Of a DNA stretch of 64,000 bases, positions 7,953 to 63,649 are shown one piece after another. Numbering within the stretch: the stretch's first letter is position 1; every line of letters begins with the position of its first letter. The DNA lies in contig JAHBVX010000004.1 of NCBI GenBank assembly GCA_019637295.1, positions 1 to 64,000 of the forward strand. Reading direction: 5' to 3'. Made by a program: the position numbers and the translations under genes. The stretch is from Polyangiaceae bacterium (GTDB taxonomy: Bacteria; Myxococcota_A; Polyangia; Polyangiales; Polyangiaceae). The notes beneath the pieces are model-generated. The model was not told where the DNA came from. It did not search any database and saw only the letters and a list, made by a program, of their open reading frames with translations.

Positions 7953-9893
7953 ATGGGGCGGAACATGGGTCCTCGCGTGCTCCCGGATGAACCGTCGCCG
8001 GCGTCCTTCAACGTCGCGAGGCACATCGGCCGCTACGGGCTGGTGCTCGAGCTGGCCGACGAGACCTGGGTCGGCGTCGTGCTCGAGGGCGCGGATCGCG
8101 GGCGACTCGTGCGGGTTCGGCTGGTATCGGCGCGGAGCTTCGCGGACGACGAGCTGGCGCTGCTCAAGCGCGCGGGGCTCACGGCGATGGTGATTCGCCA
8201 CCCCAAGGTGCTGGCCACGCTGGATTTCGCCGCCGAGGGCGACGACGTGGCCGCCGTGAGCGAGTATGTAGAGGGTGAGTCCCTGCGCGCGCTGCAACAG
8301 CAGGCCGCTCGAGCAGGCACGCCGCTTCCGCCCGCCGTCGCGTTGGCGGTGGTGCGCGACATGGTCGCCGCCCTCCGAGCCGCCCGGGATCAGTGGAAGC
8401 AGATGATACGCAGCGGGGACGCGCTCGCGGACGCCGTACACGGCGGGGTCGACCCCAGCGGCATCATCGTCGCCGCTTTCGGCGACACGATGCTCGCCGA
8501 GGTGGGCATGGCGGGCACCCTGGCGCGGCGACCCGAGGCGCTGCGCGAACCGAGCGCGCTCGTCTATCGCGCGCCCGAGCAACTCAGCCAGGGGCGCGGC
8601 TTCGCCGAGCGCTGCGACGTGTTCTCGGTGGGTGTGATCGCCTGGGAGCTGCTGGCGAATCGTCCGTTGTTCGGCGACCCGTCGCGGCTCCAAGGGAGCG
8701 TCGCGCAGGATCCGCTCGAGCTCGAGAAGCAGGTTCTGACGGGACCGATCCCTCCCCTGGACACCATCCGGGGACGAAGCGAGGTGCCCGGGGCCGTCGT
8801 GGACCTGCTCCGCAACGCCCTGCTACGCGATCCACTCAAGCGCTACTCGAGCCTCGACAAGCTCGCCCTGGCCATCGACCAGCTCCCCAGCGAGTTGTTC
8901 GCCAGCGCGGCGCAGATCACGGCGGCGGTCGATCGCTTGGCGCGCTCGTCACTGGAAGCTCGGCGCGACTCACTCGACGCGGCGCTCGGCGCCGAGACGG
9001 TGCGCGAGGGTAGCGGCCCGCAGAGCCGACGCTCCACGGCGCGTCCACCCTCGGGGACCCAAGCGGCTCGCGTCCACGTTCCCCGGCACGGCGTTCCCCG
9101 GCTCGACGAGGTCGGCGACGGCGTCCCGCCGATGGCGGAGCGCGCGGTAGCGCGCCGGCGACGGAGCCTCGAACCTGGGGCCGATGAGCCGCTGCCCGTC
9201 GATCCGCGCGCCGAGCCCGATGGGCCGCCCGCGCCGCGAGTGGAGAGTCTGTTCCCGCCGAGCACCAAGAGCCAGGCACCGCCGCGGGCCGAGGTCCGCC
9301 CGCAGGACGTCGAGCCGGAGCCCGTCAGGGTGCTTGCAGACTCGGTCGACACCGAGCTCGAGCCGCAGAGCGACGCGCACCCCGACACGCTCGTGGTCCA
9401 GCCCGACGAGCTGGCGAGTGGCGAGGCTTCGCCCTTCGAGGCGCTCGCGGACGACGAGCAGGCCGCGCCCCCCGAGCGGCTGCAGCCAGCGGCGGCTCCC
9501 TCGAGCCCGCCGGTCGCCGCGGCCGCGCCCGGGCGGCGCAACGCGCTCTGGCTCGCGCTGGGCGGTGTCGCCCTGGCCCTCGCGCTGTTCGTCGCGCTCG
9601 GCCGTGGCGGCGCCGCCAGCGACGACCCGCCGGCCACGGCTCGACCCACCGCTGAACCCCGACCTCCCTCGCCCCAGCCCGAGGCGCCCGCCGGGCAGCC
9701 CGGGCCCCGTGAACCACAGCCCCCGGCCGCGCCGGCGCCGGACGCCGCCACCCCGGAGCCCGCGGCCGTCGAGCCGGCTCAGAAGCCGCGGGTGAAGCTG
9801 CCGCGAGTACCGCCGGCTGCCAAGCCGGCCGAGTCCCCGTCCGCGACCCCGAGCGCGCAGCCGACCGAGCCCTTCCGTCCGAGCGAGATCTGA
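7953..9893 (+). CDS. membrane protein with degenerate Ser/Thr kinase domain (pseudokinase)
   Basis: A 646-residue protein. Residues ~25-320 align to the bacterial Ser/Thr kinase fold, with a clear late lobe (YRAPEQLS and CDVFSVGVIAWELLANRPLF), but the catalytic parts are replaced. There is no Gly-rich loop; the VAIK lysine position reads VRVRL; the HRD loop reads HGGVDPSG; the DFG reads EVG. After a long Pro/Glu-rich linker comes one membrane helix (about 530-550) and a Pro/Ala-rich C-terminal tail. It is therefore probably a scaffold or signal-receiving pseudokinase, not an enzyme. It is divergent from the L,D-transpeptidase. Confidence 0.8.
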   Translation: MGRNMGPRVLPDEPSPASFNVARHIGRYGLVLELADETWVGVVLEGADRGRLVRVRLVSARSFADDELALLKRAGLTAMVIRHPKVLATLDFAAEGDDVAAVSEYVEGESLRALQQQAARAGTPLPPAVALAVVRDMVAALRAARDQWKQMIRSGDALADAVHGGVDPSGIIVAAFGDTMLAEVGMAGTLARRPEALREPSALVYRAPEQLSQGRGFAERCDVFSVGVIAWELLANRPLFGDPSRLQGSVAQDPLELEKQVLTGPIPPLDTIRGRSEVPGAVVDLLRNALLRDPLKRYSSLDKLALAIDQLPSELFASAAQITAAVDRLARSSLEARRDSLDAALGAETVREGSGPQSRRSTARPPSGTQAARVHVPRHGVPRLDEVGDGVPPMAERAVARRRRSLEPGADEPLPVDPRAEPDGPPAPRVESLFPPSTKSQAPPRAEVRPQDVEPEPVRVLADSVDTELEPQSDAHPDTLVVQPDELASGEASPFEALADDEQAAPPERLQPAAAPSSPPVAAAAPGRRNALWLALGGVALALALFVALGRGGAASDDPPATARPTAEPRPPSPQPEAPAGQPGPREPQPPAAPAPDAATPEPAAVEPAQKPRVKLPRVPPAAKPAESPSATPSAQPTEPFRPSEI

Positions 9894-9951: not shown

Positions 9952-10950
9952 ATGTCAGCCCTGCGTCGGATCGCGATCGGGTTCACGCTCACGCTCATGA
10001 CCACCGCTTCGGCGTTCGCGGCCGGAGCCCCGGTAGAGCAGGCCAGCAAAGAGCAGTGGAGCGCCGCGCAGAAGACGTTCCTGGCTGCGGGCGAGCTGTA
10101 CGACGCGAAGCGCTACGACGAGTCCATCACCGCGTACCGTGCATCTTGGAACATCGTCGCGAGCCCCAACACGCGGCTGCAGATCGCTCGGGCGCTGCGC
10201 GAGCTCGACAGGGTGCCGGAAGCCTACGAGGAGATGCTGGGCGTGTTGGCGGATGCGGAGCGTGACGCAGCGAAGGACGAGAAGTACGAGCGCACGGCGA
10301 GCGCTGCGCGAGAAGAGCTCGCCGCGCTCGGGGCTCGCGTCGCGCTGCTGCGCATCACGCTGCGCAACGTGCCCGAGGGCATGTCTCCCGAGCTGACCGT
10401 GTCAGGACGTGCGATCCCGCTGGCGGCGCTCGGCAAACCAGTGGCGGCCACCCCGGGCTCGATCGACGTGACGGTGCGAGTACAGGGCCGCGAGCCGGTG
10501 GTGCAGAGCATCACCCTGGCGGCCGCAGAGTCGGGCGACCTCATCGTCGATCTGGCCGCGGGTTCGGCGGGCACCGAGCCGGTTGCAGCGCCGCCAACCG
10601 CCGCGCCGCCGCTCGACGCCAGCTCGTCCCGCTCCAGCCTACGCCCGTACGCGTACGTCGCTGGAGGTATTGGCGCTGCTGGGCTCGCCACCTTCGCCGT
10701 GTTCGGCCTGATGAACAACTCGAAGTTCAGCGAGCTCGAGGCCGACTGCCCGGGAGGTCGCTGCGCCCCGGGCAAGGACGCGGAGGTCGACACCGGACGG
10801 CAGTACCAGACCATCGCCAACATCGGGCTGGTGGTGGGCGCCGTGGGTCTTGCCGCCGGGACGGTGCTCTTCGTCCTCGAGCCCAAGCCGGAGGCCGGCG
10901 CTCGGGTCAGCCTGGGTCTGGGCACGGTGGCGGTGCAGGGACGGTTCTGA
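9952..10950 (+). CDS. secreted TPR-like protein with C-terminal membrane helices
   Basis: A 332-residue protein with a Sec signal peptide (cleavage probably after AFAAG near residue 25) and then a helical TPR-like region (AAQKTFLAAGELYDAKRYDES onward, about 35-130). A beta-rich segment resembling PEGA/carboxypeptidase-regulatory domains follows (about 135-205), then a Pro/Ala linker and two hydrophobic segments near 225-245 and 282-303. A protein at 31179-32003 has the same order of parts. Such proteins are common beside kinases in polyangial genomes, but no biochemical role is known to me. It lies 58 bp downstream of the pseudokinase gene in the same direction and may be co-transcribed. Confidence 0.7.
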   Translation: MSALRRIAIGFTLTLMTTASAFAAGAPVEQASKEQWSAAQKTFLAAGELYDAKRYDESITAYRASWNIVASPNTRLQIARALRELDRVPEAYEEMLGVLADAERDAAKDEKYERTASAAREELAALGARVALLRITLRNVPEGMSPELTVSGRAIPLAALGKPVAATPGSIDVTVRVQGREPVVQSITLAAAESGDLIVDLAAGSAGTEPVAAPPTAAPPLDASSSRSSLRPYAYVAGGIGAAGLATFAVFGLMNNSKFSELEADCPGGRCAPGKDAEVDTGRQYQTIANIGLVVGAVGLAAGTVLFVLEPKPEAGARVSLGLGTVAVQGRF

Positions 10951-11074: not shown

Positions 11075-12463
11075 ATGGCGATGATGACGGCGAACGTGCG
11101 CAAGTGGGCGTTGGCGTGGGGTGTGGCCGCGCTGCTCGGGCTCGCCCAAGGCTGCGGCAGTCGGGCCGATCTCGGGCCCGACGGCGACGCGGGCATCGGG
11201 GGCGTCGGGGGCGGGGGCGGCAGCGGGGGCAGCGGCGGGGTGCCTCACGGTTGCGGCAACGGTACCTGCGACGCCAACGAGGATCCGGTGACCTGTCCCG
11301 CGGACTGTCACGGCTTCTGCGGCGATGGGACCTGCTCGATCACCGAGAATCCCATGAGCTGCCCCGCGGACTGCGCGTACAACTGCGGGGACGGACTGTG
11401 CCACCCCGGCGAGCACAGCACCTGCCCCAAGGACTGCCCAGGTGCCTGCGGCAACGCCAAGTGCGAGCCGGGAGAGACCGCCGAGTCCTGCCCGCAGGAC
11501 TGCGGCCAGGGCTACTGCGGCGACGGCTACTGCGGACCGAACGAGGACCCGTGGACCTGCCAACAGGACTGCGGGTTCTGCGGCGATGGCCAGTGCGGCG
11601 CTGGGGAGGACCCCAAGAGCTGCCCGAGCGACTGCGGCGGCTACGGCTACTGCGGCGACTACGTCTGCGGACCCGGCGAGAACCAGTACAACTGCCCGCA
11701 GGACTGCGGCGGCCCCGGCTACTGCGGCAACTACGTCTGCGAGCCCGGCGAGAACCAGTACAACTGCCCGCAGGACTGCGGCGGCCCCGGCTACTGCGGC
11801 AACTACGTCTGCGAGCCCGGCGAGAACCAGTACAACTGCCCGCAGGACTGCGGCTATTACGGCTATTGCGGCGACTACATGTGCGGACCGGGCGAGGACC
11901 AGTACAACTGCCCACAAGACTGCGGCAAGCCGTATTGCGGCGACTACGTCTGCGGGCCCGGCGAGAACCAGTACAACTGCCCGCAAGACTGCGGCTATTA
12001 CGGATACTGCGGCGACTACGTCTGCGGGCCCGGCGAGAACCAGTACAACTGCCCGCAAGACTGCGGCTATTACGGATACTGCGGCGACTACGTCTGCGGG
12101 CCCGGCGAGAACCCCTACAACTGCCCGCAAGACTGCGGCTATTACGGATACTGCGGCGACTACGTCTGCGGGCCCGGCGAGAACCCCTACAACTGCCCCT
12201 GGGATTGTGGTGGCTACCCACCGCCGCCGCCGTACTGTGGCAACTACCAGTGCGAGCCGGGCGAGAACCAGTACAACTGCCCGCAGGACTGCGGCTACGG
12301 CGGGTACTGCGGCAACTATGTATGCGAACCTGGGGAGTGGCAGTGGTGTCCCCAGGACTGCGGCTATCCGGGCGGCTCCGGTGGTGGTGGAAGCGGTGGC
12401 TTCGCGGGCTCCAGCGGTGGTTTCGCCGGCTCCGGCGGCGCGATGCCTCCTCCGATGCCTTGA
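11075..12463 (+). CDS. Cys-rich repeat lipoprotein (16 CGxxxC...CPxDC repeats)
   Basis: A 462-residue secreted protein: a signal peptide ending in LAQGC (lipobox-like), a Gly/Ser linker, then 16 tandem repeats of about 22-25 residues, and a Gly/Ser/Pro C-terminus. Each repeat follows CG-(N/D)-x-x-C-x-P-G-E-x-x-x-x-CP-x-DCG with four conserved Cys, which suggests a disulfide-stabilised rod on the cell surface. The first six repeats are diverged, while repeats 7-14 are nearly identical and rich in Tyr/Asn/Gln. Short versions of this motif occur in other secreted bacterial proteins, but its function is not known to me. Adhesin or structural spacer is a guess. Confidence 0.8.
   Translation: MAMMTANVRKWALAWGVAALLGLAQGCGSRADLGPDGDAGIGGVGGGGGSGGSGGVPHGCGNGTCDANEDPVTCPADCHGFCGDGTCSITENPMSCPADCAYNCGDGLCHPGEHSTCPKDCPGACGNAKCEPGETAESCPQDCGQGYCGDGYCGPNEDPWTCQQDCGFCGDGQCGAGEDPKSCPSDCGGYGYCGDYVCGPGENQYNCPQDCGGPGYCGNYVCEPGENQYNCPQDCGGPGYCGNYVCEPGENQYNCPQDCGYYGYCGDYMCGPGEDQYNCPQDCGKPYCGDYVCGPGENQYNCPQDCGYYGYCGDYVCGPGENQYNCPQDCGYYGYCGDYVCGPGENPYNCPQDCGYYGYCGDYVCGPGENPYNCPWDCGGYPPPPPYCGNYQCEPGENQYNCPQDCGYGGYCGNYVCEPGEWQWCPQDCGYPGGSGGGGSGGFAGSSGGFAGSGGAMPPPMP
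11644..12340 (+). repeat. 72-bp coding tandem repeats
   Basis: Within the Cys-rich lipoprotein gene, about nine units of roughly 72 bp (24 codons, YCGDYVCGPGENQYNCPQDC plus a spacer) follow each other, several differing at only a few bases. One unit is 69 bp (around 11870-11940), and near 12217 a Pro codon run is inserted. The unit length is always a multiple of three, so gain or loss of units keeps the reading frame. Confidence 0.85.
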
Positions 12464-34319: not shown

Positions 34320-34478
34320 CCCACGCGACCCGCGATCGCCCACGCCCCCCCACCACGCCCACGCAACACGCCCCCGCCCCCGCACACGCCCACGCAACCG
34401 CCCCCGCACCTCGCCCACGCCCCCGCACCTCGCCCACGCCCCCGCAACACGCCCACGCCCCCGCACACGCCCCCCCCG
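34320..34478. repeat. low-complexity CGCCCACGC-type repeat, copy A
   Basis: About 160 bp almost wholly made of CACGCCC, CGCAACACGCCCACGC and CCCCGCACCTCGC words, lying between the Cys-rich lipoprotein and the four-helix protein gene. The same words recur at 35023-35140, 41890-41927 and 43640-43836. Confidence 0.75.
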
Positions 34479-34822: not shown

Positions 34823-35147
34823 CGGACCATCTCCTCTTCTCCGATCGCGCCCACTGCGCGGCGGTCGTCCCACCGCCACCCGGCTCGCGCAGGCGCCGTC
34901 CAGGCTGCGCGCGAAGCGCGCACGGCGCGCAGCCACGCGCAGGCGAAGCCGAGCATGGCGAGCACCGCCCCGGCCTGGACGACGCCGAGCAAGCCGGTAC
35001 CCTCAGACGACCGCAGCGAGCCCCTCGCCCACGCCCCCGCAACACGCCCTCGCCCACGCACCTCGCCCACGCCCCCGCACCACGCCCACGCCCCCGCACC
35101 TCGCCCACGCCCCCGCCCGCGATCGCCCACGCGACCCGCGAGCGTCG
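34823..35147. other. intergenic region with possible coding remnant and repeats
   Basis: The left half has no gene I can support. Read on the minus strand it contains a hydrophobic stretch (GTGLLGVVQAGAVLAML) near 34940-35020, which could be the relic of a membrane protein. The right part, from 35023, is low-complexity repeat. No promoter is obvious except the ribosome binding site of the four-helix protein gene. Confidence 0.4.
35023..35140. repeat. low-complexity CGCCCACGC-type repeat, copy B
   Basis: About 118 bp of the same words as copy A, directly after the 3' end of the peptide transporter gene. GCGATCGCCCACGCGACCCGCG near its end is also found, in altered order, at the start of copy A. 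Confidence 0.72.
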
Positions 35148-37073
35148 CTACCCCTCCTGCAGGTAGGTGCGCCCCTTGTACAGGTACGCCAGCACCATGA
35201 ACGCGAGGGCCGCGCCGACCATCAGCCCGGTGAACACCCAGAAGAACTGGCTGAGGCTCAGGATGGTCTGCATCGGCGCGAGGAAGGCGACCAGCACGTT
35301 GCCGAAGGTCACGCCCAGGAGCCAGAAGCCCATGATCGTGCTCTTCATGCGACGCGGCGCCTGGGTGTAGGCGAACTCGAGCCCCGTCACGCTCACGAGC
35401 ACCTCCGCGGTGGTCATGATCAAGTAAGGCGCGATCTGCCACAAGACGTGGACCGCCTCGCCGTGCGTCGCGAGCGCCTCCATGCGCGCCTGGAGCATGG
35501 CCGCCACCCCGAACGCCACGGCGGCGAGGAACATGCCGAGGGTCATCTTCTGCAGGGGCCTGATGGTGATGCCGCGCTTCTCCAGGGGCCGGTACACGGC
35601 CACGTTCAGGAGCGGGATGATGATCATGACCATCAGCGGGTTGAGCGCCGAGATCTGCGCGGCCTTCAGCTCGATGGTCGTGGTCTGCCGCGCGATCGAG
35701 TCGAGGGCGATCGCCGAGAGGCCCGCGAGCCCCACGACGCCGAAGAGGGCCCGCGTCACGGACCTCGGGATCGAGCGGTTGGACACCCACAAGAACAGCC
35801 AGGTGCCTCCGAGCAGCGCGAGCGCGATGGTCGCCGCCACCGCGTAGCGTCCGCTCCAGTAGGGCACGGTGATCGTGCGATCCATCTGCTTGGCCTGCTC
35901 GATCCAGGTCGAGGCGTGCTGGTCGAACAGGGCCCAGAACACGCTGACCATGCTGAACACGGCGACGATGCGCAGCACCGCCGGGGGGCCGTCCCCGGCC
36001 TCGTCGCCAAACTTGCGACGCGCCGGATCGAAGAAGCCCTCCCCGGGCCTCCGCTCGGCGCGATGCGTGAACGCATACAGCACCACGGCGATGAAGCCCG
36101 CGTCCGACTGCTTCTTCTGCCGCAAGGTGAACAAGTACAGGCCCGCCGCGACGCACAAGCCAGAGAAGGCGAAGTAGTGCCAGGACGTCGCGGCCAGGTG
36201 AGCGGTGTAGTCCCGCACGTAGAGCCAATAGAACTCCGTCTTGGCCATACCCTCGCTGCTGGCCGCCTTGAAATGCTCCCCCTGCACGAACACCGCGACG
36301 ATCAACGCGACGATGGGCGTGAACAACAGCACGCTCGAGCCCACGTCGAGCAGCCCGAGCCTGCCGCCGGGGCTGGGCGCCACGTGCACGAAGCGCCGGC
36401 GGCCGAGCCAGAACACGATCGTGGCCAGCGCCATCATGATGCCGGGCACGCCGAAGGCGACCTCCGCGCCGAACCAGGCGTACAAGAGCGGCGTGAGCAA
36501 GGTCGAGAAGAACGAGCCAAAGTTGATGATGAAGTAGAAGATCTGAAAGACCTTGGAGACCAAGTGGGAGTTCTTGGCGGTGAACTGATCGCCCACGTTG
36601 GCCGACACGCACGGCTTGATGCCGCCGGAGCCGATAGCGATGAGCGCGAGGCCCGCGTACATGCCGTACTCGGCCGCCTTGAAGTTCTCCCACTCGGCGA
36701 AGCGCCCCGCGACCGCGAGCACGGCGTGGCCGGCGCAGTAGATGATCGACACCCAGAAGATGACCGGGTACTTGCCGAGCAAACGGTCCGCCAAGATGGC
36801 GCCGATCATCGGGAAGGCGTACACGCCCGCCATGAACAGGTGCGCGACCGCGGTGGCTTGCGCCTTGGCGGCGTCGGTCTGGGCCGAGGTGAGGTCCGCC
36901 TCGGAGACGAAGTGCACGTAGAGCGACGCCAGGTACACGTACAGGATGGCGCGCATCCCGTAGTAGCTGAAGCGCTCGGCCCCTTCGTTGCCGACGATGA
37001 ACGGGATGCCCGGCGGGAAGCGGTCCTCGCGCTCCTCGACCTTGGCTTCTTCGGGTGCGGTGGCAGAGCTCAT
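35148..37073 (-). CDS. POT/PTR-family proton-dependent peptide transporter
   Basis: A 641-residue inner-membrane protein with about 14 helices. GNEGAERFSYYGMRAILYVY holds the ExxERFxYYG motif of proton-coupled oligopeptide transporters, and ADRLLGKYPVIFWVS is the PTR2 signature. Bacterial members import di- and tripeptides. It is longer than the ~490-residue E. coli type because of extended loops in the middle and near residues 270-300. The start at 37073 is chosen because GGAGGAG lies just upstream; the open frame continues 77 codons further without family sequence. It is divergent from the sdh operon. Confidence 0.9.
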   Translation of the reverse strand: MSSATAPEEAKVEEREDRFPPGIPFIVGNEGAERFSYYGMRAILYVYLASLYVHFVSEADLTSAQTDAAKAQATAVAHLFMAGVYAFPMIGAILADRLLGKYPVIFWVSIIYCAGHAVLAVAGRFAEWENFKAAEYGMYAGLALIAIGSGGIKPCVSANVGDQFTAKNSHLVSKVFQIFYFIINFGSFFSTLLTPLLYAWFGAEVAFGVPGIMMALATIVFWLGRRRFVHVAPSPGGRLGLLDVGSSVLLFTPIVALIVAVFVQGEHFKAASSEGMAKTEFYWLYVRDYTAHLAATSWHYFAFSGLCVAAGLYLFTLRQKKQSDAGFIAVVLYAFTHRAERRPGEGFFDPARRKFGDEAGDGPPAVLRIVAVFSMVSVFWALFDQHASTWIEQAKQMDRTITVPYWSGRYAVAATIALALLGGTWLFLWVSNRSIPRSVTRALFGVVGLAGLSAIALDSIARQTTTIELKAAQISALNPLMVMIIIPLLNVAVYRPLEKRGITIRPLQKMTLGMFLAAVAFGVAAMLQARMEALATHGEAVHVLWQIAPYLIMTTAEVLVSVTGLEFAYTQAPRRMKSTIMGFWLLGVTFGNVLVAFLAPMQTILSLSQFFWVFTGLMVGAALAFMVLAYLYKGRTYLQEG

Positions 37074-43494: not shown

Positions 43495-43857
43495 GCGGAG
43501 CGTCCTGCTTCGTCTCTTGGGTCGCAGCAGGAGCTTCGCGGTCGCGGCGTTCGCCGTCGTTCAGTACGTGACCGCCGTCGCCGACGCATCGGACGCGGAC
43601 CTCGAGACCCGCCTGGCGAGCGCCACTTCGTCGGTGACTCACGCCCCCGCCATCGCAACACGCCCCCGCCCACGCAACACGCCATCGCGAGACGCCCACG
43701 CGACCGCCATCGCCATCGCGCCCGCAGCCCGCCCACGCTACCGCGCCCGCAACGCCCCACGCAACACGCCCACGCAACACGCCCACGCCCACGCAACACG
43801 CCCACGCCACCGTCATCGCGACACGCCCCGCCCCGCAGACGTGCTACCCTCCCGCCC
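43495..43857. other. intergenic region, mostly low-complexity repeat
   Basis: No gene is supported. The first ~130 bp read on the plus strand as LLRLLGRSRSFAVAAFAVVQ then ADASDADLETRLAS, possibly a relic of a coding sequence. From 43640 to 43836 the DNA is CGCCCACGC-type repeat, and the remaining ~20 bp lead into the next lipoprotein's ATG. Confidence 0.4.
43640..43836. repeat. low-complexity CGCCCACGC-type repeat, copy C
   Basis: The longest block in the window, about 200 bp, built from CGCAACACGCCC, CGCCATCGC, CCCACGC and GCGACCGCC words. It has the same word set as the blocks at 34320, 35023 and 41890. Confidence 0.75.
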
Positions 43858-57342: not shown

Positions 57343-61538
<4,196 letters not shown>

Positions 61539-63263: not shown

Positions 63264-63326
63264 CTCATCCCTCATCCCTCATCCCTCATCCCTCATCCCT
63301 CATCCCTCATCCCTCTTCCCTCTTCC
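63264..63326. repeat. heptanucleotide tract CTCATCC x7 + CTCTTCC x2
   Basis: Seven perfect CTCATCC units (63264-63312) followed by two CTCTTCC units. Outside any gene I can support. Confidence 0.9.
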
Positions 63327-63352
63327 CGCTGCCCCCTGCCCCTGAAGTCGCA

Positions 63353-63429: not shown

Positions 63430-63649
63430 GAGCACCCGGGCAGACTCGAATCAGCCAAGCCAGCACCCACCCAACGCGCAACGCGCAACGCGCCGCGCTC
63501 ATCCCTCATCCCGCTTCCCCCTGCCCGCTGCCCGCTTCCCCCTGCCCACTGCCCCTGCCCCTGCCCCCTGCCCGCCTTCGCGGCCAACACGGCGCCCCGC
63601 CATTTCATCGCCGTGGCCCAGGACATAGAGTGCCGCCCACTGGACGCTC

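Follow-up and report, generated by a model that had tools for sequence, protein, structure and literature searches.

What kind of protein is built from sixteen closely similar cysteine-rich units, and how did those units come to be so alike? The question is posed by an open reading frame at 11075-12463, plus strand, of the window (the whole 64,000-nucleotide stretch of Polyangiaceae DNA that was analyzed). It starts with ATG and encodes 462 amino acids, with 16 in-frame four-Cys units of the pattern C-G-[DN]-x2-C-x3-E-x3-5-C-P-x-D-C; 2,000 residue shuffles of the same protein gave a mean of 0.002 units and a maximum of 1, which upholds the sixteen-repeat Cys-rich array of the original prediction. 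The parts of the gene, with the evidence used for each, are as follows.

11075..11152, plus strand: hydrophobic signal peptide (residues 1-26) ending in LAQG; sequence and alignment with homologues
11153..11164, plus strand: predicted lipidated Cys27 with the conserved motif C-G-S-R; motif counts in array lipoproteins versus other lipobox-like ORFs
11165..11251, plus strand: Gly/Asp-rich spacer; sequence
11252..11650, plus strand: units 1-6, diverged, partly collinear with the units of G021, the only further genome in its genus; unit comparison
11651..12235, plus strand: units 7-14, the recently renewed part, unit 14 with a Pro-rich linker; TRF and unit comparison
12236..12361, plus strand: units 15 and 16, the latter the short EWQWC form; pattern and homologue alignment
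12362..12463, plus strand: Gly/Ser/Phe/Pro tail and stop, with neither transmembrane helix nor head domain; sequence, no Pfam/NCBIfam match

The protein probably serves as a stalk or spacer in the cell envelope, as a lipoprotein whose most likely place is the outer membrane. It would be exported, cleaved ahead of Cys27, and lipidated. Cys27 is the invariant Cys downstream of the hydrophobic stretch and is kept in the homologues, and the lipoprotein character predicted originally is supported to that extent. Of the textbook lipobox, L(-3)-[AST](-2)-[GA](-1), the window protein (A-Q-G) fits position -1 alone; the A and Q at -3 and -2 are atypical, and these two positions vary among homologues. 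According to excerpts of one study of M. xanthus, a Lys at +2 leads to the inner membrane and an Ala at +7 marks matrix lipoproteins, and the same excerpts note no conserved signal for outer-membrane lipoproteins (PMC3222651). The window protein has G at +2 and L at +7; since it carries neither +2 Lys nor +7 Ala, the M. xanthus scheme would assign it by default to the outer membrane. Its composition is extreme (pI 4.05; Tyr plus Trp make up 50, and Lys plus Arg only 7, of the 462 residues). Because there is no head domain, action through length, surface, or tail is probable: a strongly acidic, Tyr-rich protein of this kind could be a bristle, a link to the matrix, or a membrane spacer.

Each core of 18-19 residues would fold round two disulfides, and short Gly/Tyr/Pro linkers would connect the sixteen cores into an extended chain. 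Disulfide pairing is likely, since the Cys that follow the lipid Cys are even in number in 20 of the 21 array lipoproteins with closed frames and in 11 of 13 held-out ones; in the window protein they number 64, all of them unit Cys. The remaining odd counts (1/21, and 2/13 held-out arrays) weigh against a stalk, as do the atypical lipobox residues and the lack of a head domain for such a stalk to present. Conservation in the module extends beyond Cys. A set of 367 units was picked from search-retrieved loci with Cys spacing as the sole criterion, the ORFs having been preselected by an E-or-D pattern. In it, G occupies position 2 in 97% of units, E accounts for 86% and D for 8% at position 10, and directly ahead of the last Cys D accounts for 90% and E for 10%. 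In a second set of 150 three-unit windows selected by Cys spacing, G2 and D18, the residue that precedes the final Cys, are invariant in all three units, and E10 is invariant in units one and three and at least 90% conserved in unit two. At a guess, the conserved acidic residues may hold calcium.

An AlphaFold model of three units reached pLDDT 81.2 (pTM 0.52) and shows the C-P-x-D-C ends of units one and two as one-turn helices; six units gave pLDDT 60.1 (pTM 0.29). Foldseek returned no fold match in the PDB, a result of little weight since the query model is nearly devoid of regular structure. Thus, of the stiff disulfide-linked stalk proposed originally, the disulfides are supported by the Cys counts and the stiffness is not supported by the models. 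With confident structure for no more than three units and no fold match, the extended, stiff shape is something that we infer, as are surface exposure and the stalk function itself.

The 64 unit Cys could also be read as the reduced thiols of a metal-binding protein, such as a store for zinc or copper, and a weak phmmer match to designed zinc fingers points the same way. We regard such a store as very improbable. The match reflects the spacing of Cys and of Gly-Glu alone, an exported location favors oxidation, and the residues conserved besides Cys are G, E, and D, with no further soft ligands such as His. The zinc finger itself was rejected, as the phmmer match comes from Cys spacing alone and no His is conserved in the unit. 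Other searches were equally unproductive. The whole protein matched nothing in Pfam (E up to 1) or NCBIfam, and array proteins of relatives gave no acceptable match in either. A Pfam scan of 56 six-unit windows gave weak matches only, to RET_CRD (0.044) and LNR (0.2), by 2 of the 56 members each, and a profile of the 150 three-unit windows against PDB sequences found only Evasin-1, at E 1.1. A literature search on the unit motif found no description, and literature on myxobacteria (TraA/SitA and general) yielded nothing about this array. The module is without an entry in the family libraries searched (Pfam and NCBIfam).

How the copies arose can be read in part from the DNA. TRF reports a 72-bp period in 8.1 copies at 11620-12198 (score 752). 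It also reports a 285-bp period in 1.9 copies, so the array may at some time have doubled a block of four units. Units 1-15 measure 66, 66, 63, 69, 63, 72, 72, 72, 72, 69, 72, 72, 72, 84, and 72 bp, and unit 16, without a linker, 54 bp. All are divisible by 3, so the frame is kept in every unit as originally stated, and 72 bp is the length of 8 of the 15 linker-bearing units. The original prediction also had units 7-14 almost identical and units 1-6 diverged. This is correct for units 1-6 (65-77% mutual DNA identity) and for units 7-9 with 11-13 (84-100%), where units 11 and 12 share all 72 bp, both match unit 13 at 97%, unit 7 matches unit 8 at 95%, and unit 8 matches unit 9 at 91%; it is incorrect for unit 10 (78-85% against the rest of 7-14) and unit 14 (78-84%). 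Where residues match, the same codon is used in 94% of cases within units 7-9 plus 11-13 and in 72% within units 1-6, against an expectation of 58% derived from the codon use of neighboring genes. Near-identity in the middle of the array therefore exceeds what protein constraint plus codon bias would produce. The cores of units 8 and 9 are identical and their linkers differ, a pattern compatible with both unit exchange and duplication.

The window holds other repeats. Three scattered, degenerate arrays of CGCCCACGC-like units lie at 34337-34474, 35020-35148, and 43640-43855. A perfect ACGC repeat of 12.8 copies (57351-57401) stands close to where an open frame of 1501 codons begins, and its four-base unit could shift the reading frame. 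The heptamer CTCATCC occurs nine times at 63264-63327, and a C-rich array follows at 63509-63575.

Comparison with homologues shows which part of the array is old. The other genome of the genus, G021, has 21 units to the 16 of the window. Window units 1, 3, 4, and 5 find their best partners in G021 units 1, 2, 3, and 4, in collinear order; window unit 6 is closest to G021 unit 6 (80%) and then unit 5 (77%), and no separate partner is left for window unit 2. When five homologous arrays (the window included) were compared unit by unit, the nearest relative of each of units 7-13 was another window unit, and that of units 1, 3, 5, and 6 a unit from another genome; units 4 and 16 were nearest to window units, and units 2, 14, and 15 gave ties. 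From this pattern, the middle has been renewed within the lineage and the start largely inherited. Together with the DNA identity and the codon agreement, the within-protein nearest units support the recent expansion or homogenization claimed for the middle of the array. The short last unit, EWQWC in the window, recurs as EWGWC, EWQTC, or EWKTC at the array ends of homologues. Between species, length is seen to change by in-frame duplication and homogenization of middle units, with the opening units and the closing one retained.

Closed frames among homologues hold 16 (window), 21, 26, and 24 units, and further ones 18, 51, 23, 31, and 34, of which the 34 (G087) is among those taken from draft genomes, where copy numbers are uncertain. 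The largest array, L131:11563-15045 (G046), carries its 51 units in a single frame of 1161 codons. Repeat number is thus not identical in all relatives, and the variation in length foreseen originally is found both between species (16-51 units) and inside one genus (16 versus 21). That the exact number in the window is an artefact of assembly, through collapse or expansion of 72-bp repeats in an otherwise real family, seems distinctly improbable. Several relatives' arrays do stop at contig edges (those of G013 and G033 are interrupted by contig ends), but the window contig, running 626 kb, crosses the array and the frame is kept, and lineage-specific identical units are seen independently in other genomes.

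Myxobacteria are social and predatory in lifestyle. With unit sets and lengths that are lineage-specific and with abundant Tyr and Trp, the protein might instead be a molecule of contact or recognition (adhesion to prey, kin, or matrix), in which change of units and length is itself under selection. This is unlikely: the unit changes look more like one peptide duplicated than like diversification, CGDYVCGPGENQYNCPQDC is kept in both genomes of the genus although the DNA encoding it has diverged, and no known binding domain was found with Pfam.

The array had been placed between two kinase-related genes. This is correct for the right neighbor, an intact kinase with a cNMP-binding domain, and loosely so on the left, where the second gene over (7953-9893) matches the Pfam kinase model at E 3.4e-14, lacks the HRD and DFG motifs, and is likely a pseudokinase with a Pro/Ala-rich C-terminal part; the immediate left neighbor (9952-10950) has no Pfam match. 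When the 9 neighbors were compared with 12 stretches, mostly from relatives, none recurred beside an array except for one kinase match at 28% identity, and kinase matches in the genome as a whole number at least 151. Kinase adjacency thus means little, and a kinase partnership was ruled out on these grounds.

What does recur, in an all-against-all comparison of neighbors, is the order array gene, double-FHA gene, ECF sigma factor, TPR protein, and putative outer-membrane protein. The TPR protein has a hydrophobic stretch and is labeled anti-sigma-like by us; the last protein, without a Pfam match, is taken for a putative outer-membrane barrel. The order is seen at L055:5701-13011, L132, L131, L040, L035, and others, often preceded by a membrane-protein gene with ferredoxin-like Cys motifs, and the L047 copy of the double-FHA protein has a weak TPR-like N-terminus. 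Among 17 genomes with the FHA gene in a fetched stretch, the array lies beside it in 10 (8 genera) and is absent beside it in 7. In two g14 genomes the array is about 1.5 kb from the FHA gene. Four more are linked by coordinates (G013, G063, G064, and G094), for a total of at least 14 genomes in 9 genera.

This adjacency raises a further alternative, that the lipoprotein supplies the outer input to an envelope-sensing system whose remaining parts are the FHA, ECF-sigma, and TPR (anti-sigma-like) genes. We give it a small chance, given the 7 of 17 FHA-bearing stretches without an adjoining array, the lack of a direct sigma-factor link, and the separation of array and operon on different contigs in the window's own genus: the operon is on contig C9 of the window genome and the FHA gene on C36 of G021, with no array at either site. 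In the window genome, the slot before the FHA gene (L124:5902-7380) holds a lipoprotein-like gene with the metallopeptidase motif HEMGHAHGRKH, and the corresponding gene of G021 (L125:4493-6028) is likewise lipoprotein-like and carries a zinc-metallopeptidase motif. With the operon on other contigs and the array slot otherwise occupied, the window array most likely either moved away from this operon or is closely paralogous to the operon-linked array.

Among known systems, the closest in general plan is TraA of Myxococcus, the outer membrane exchange receptor, whose Cys-rich repeats are proposed as a stalk in excerpts of PMC3325183 and PMC6372800; by the latter's account, two or three of the first four repeats can be deleted with full function. 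As far as those excerpts go, the shared features are export, myxobacterial origin, and tandem Cys-rich repeats of about 20 residues (TIGR04201, Myxo_Cys_RPT). The differences are several. TraA has a PA14 head and a MYXO-CTERM (Cys motif, helix, and basic end), whereas no PA14 domain was found in the window protein (Pfam, E up to 1) and its Gly/Ser/Pro-rich tail has no helix and no NCBIfam match to MYXO-CTERM. Moreover, the window protein would be lipid-anchored at its N-terminus, and its units are far more numerous and far more regular. The TIGR04201 model matches neither the protein nor the locus at E up to 10 and passes at four other places in the genome, so membership was ruled out by the family's own model. 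The same holds for TIGR02232 (myxo_disulf_rpt, 38 positions), with 24 matches in the genome and none at the array locus at E up to 10. That repeat is also common in Myxococcota and disulfide-forming, likewise starts C-G-[DN]-G, shares an equally spaced E-P-G-E with array units in sequences such as L057, and adjoins array units in L057, L063, L068, and L069; the Cys spacing after E differs in the array unit. A remote common origin of the two is possible. No paper was found for TIGR02232, and searches on TIGR04201 and related names returned PMC3325183 only. By its defining features the window protein stands outside the TraA family, and by analogy it plausibly works like the TraA stalk, headless.

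The most testable novelty is the link to the operon together with a motif at the N-terminus, rather than the kinase neighbors. Right behind the predicted lipidated Cys, C-[GSA]-(S)-R-[STAI] is present in 24 of 25 array lipoproteins whose first unit begins within 50 amino acids, the sole exception being L062 (Corallococcus), in 1 of 15 with a longer spacer, and in 1 of 51 lipobox-like ORFs without an array (864 kb of the same genome). The motif was defined on the same, related sequences, so a Fisher value overstates the case; an early test on a small set (7/11 versus 0/13) is superseded by these larger sets. Twenty further stretches were then drawn as a held-out set; of their 14 near arrays 8 had the motif, or 7 of 13 once L145, the same protein as L056, is left out. 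Split by kinship, all 7 from the window's order or class have it and none of the 6 from other classes does, and the claim is therefore kept for the class alone. Since the motif spans arrays of differing unit types, it is a candidate sorting signal that may serve the class's array lipoproteins; common descent is an alternative source. The LES of Bacteroidetes offers a parallel, described in an excerpt of PMC5080379 as a short motif directly behind the lipidated Cys that is common to a class of lipoproteins. The motif here, C-[GSA]-(S)-R-[STA], differs in being basic where the LES is acidic, in belonging to another phylum, and in being a candidate signal only.

Related arrays are widespread, as the search of related genomes suggested in the original prediction makes clear: protein matches occur in 62 of 98 sampled family genomes and 106 of 282 of the phylum. 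A pattern scan of contigs from 84,980 species confirmed 31 of 87 stretches, chiefly Myxococcota or unassigned deltaproteobacterial bins, with Minicystis rosea, Myxococcus qinghaiensis, and Corallococcus carmarthensis among the carriers; outlying carriers, several of them weak, are one Gracilibacteria, one Anaerolineae, one Oligoflexales, and six archaeal bins. In the archaeal bins (L059, L072-L076; Woesearchaeota, Micrarchaeota, Nanohalarchaeota, DPANN), the unit sits in large, exported-looking proteins. Plasmid records gave no match to the array. Arrays differ in type, some with four-Cys units, as in the window, and some with six-Cys units, some of the latter followed by a conserved C-terminal domain. 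The window's own genome has a second array lipoprotein, L002 (G000:C22:468720-469349), with seven six-Cys units and a C-terminal Cys-containing domain common to L029, L031, L032, and L033. In L061, L065, and L067, a few units lie, by our reading, between protease-like parts and a hydrophobic C-terminal end, and L062:3979-5974 (Corallococcus carmarthensis) has three consecutive small array-lipoprotein frames with unit variants. Tentatively, one could see in all this a class of Polyangia surface lipoproteins, with C-[GSA]-(S)-R-[STA] as export signal, rods of four- or six-Cys modules, length tuned by duplication, and an origin in the FHA/ECF-sigma operon from which the window protein has departed.

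What the array lipoprotein offers to the biology of the group is threefold. The N-terminal motif makes lipoprotein sorting testable in this group. The series of homologues from 16 to 51 units is natural material on the evolution of length in an envelope protein. Finally, a widespread exported repeat module, present across Myxococcota and more sparsely in candidate-phylum bacteria and archaea, stands without a Pfam or NCBIfam entry.
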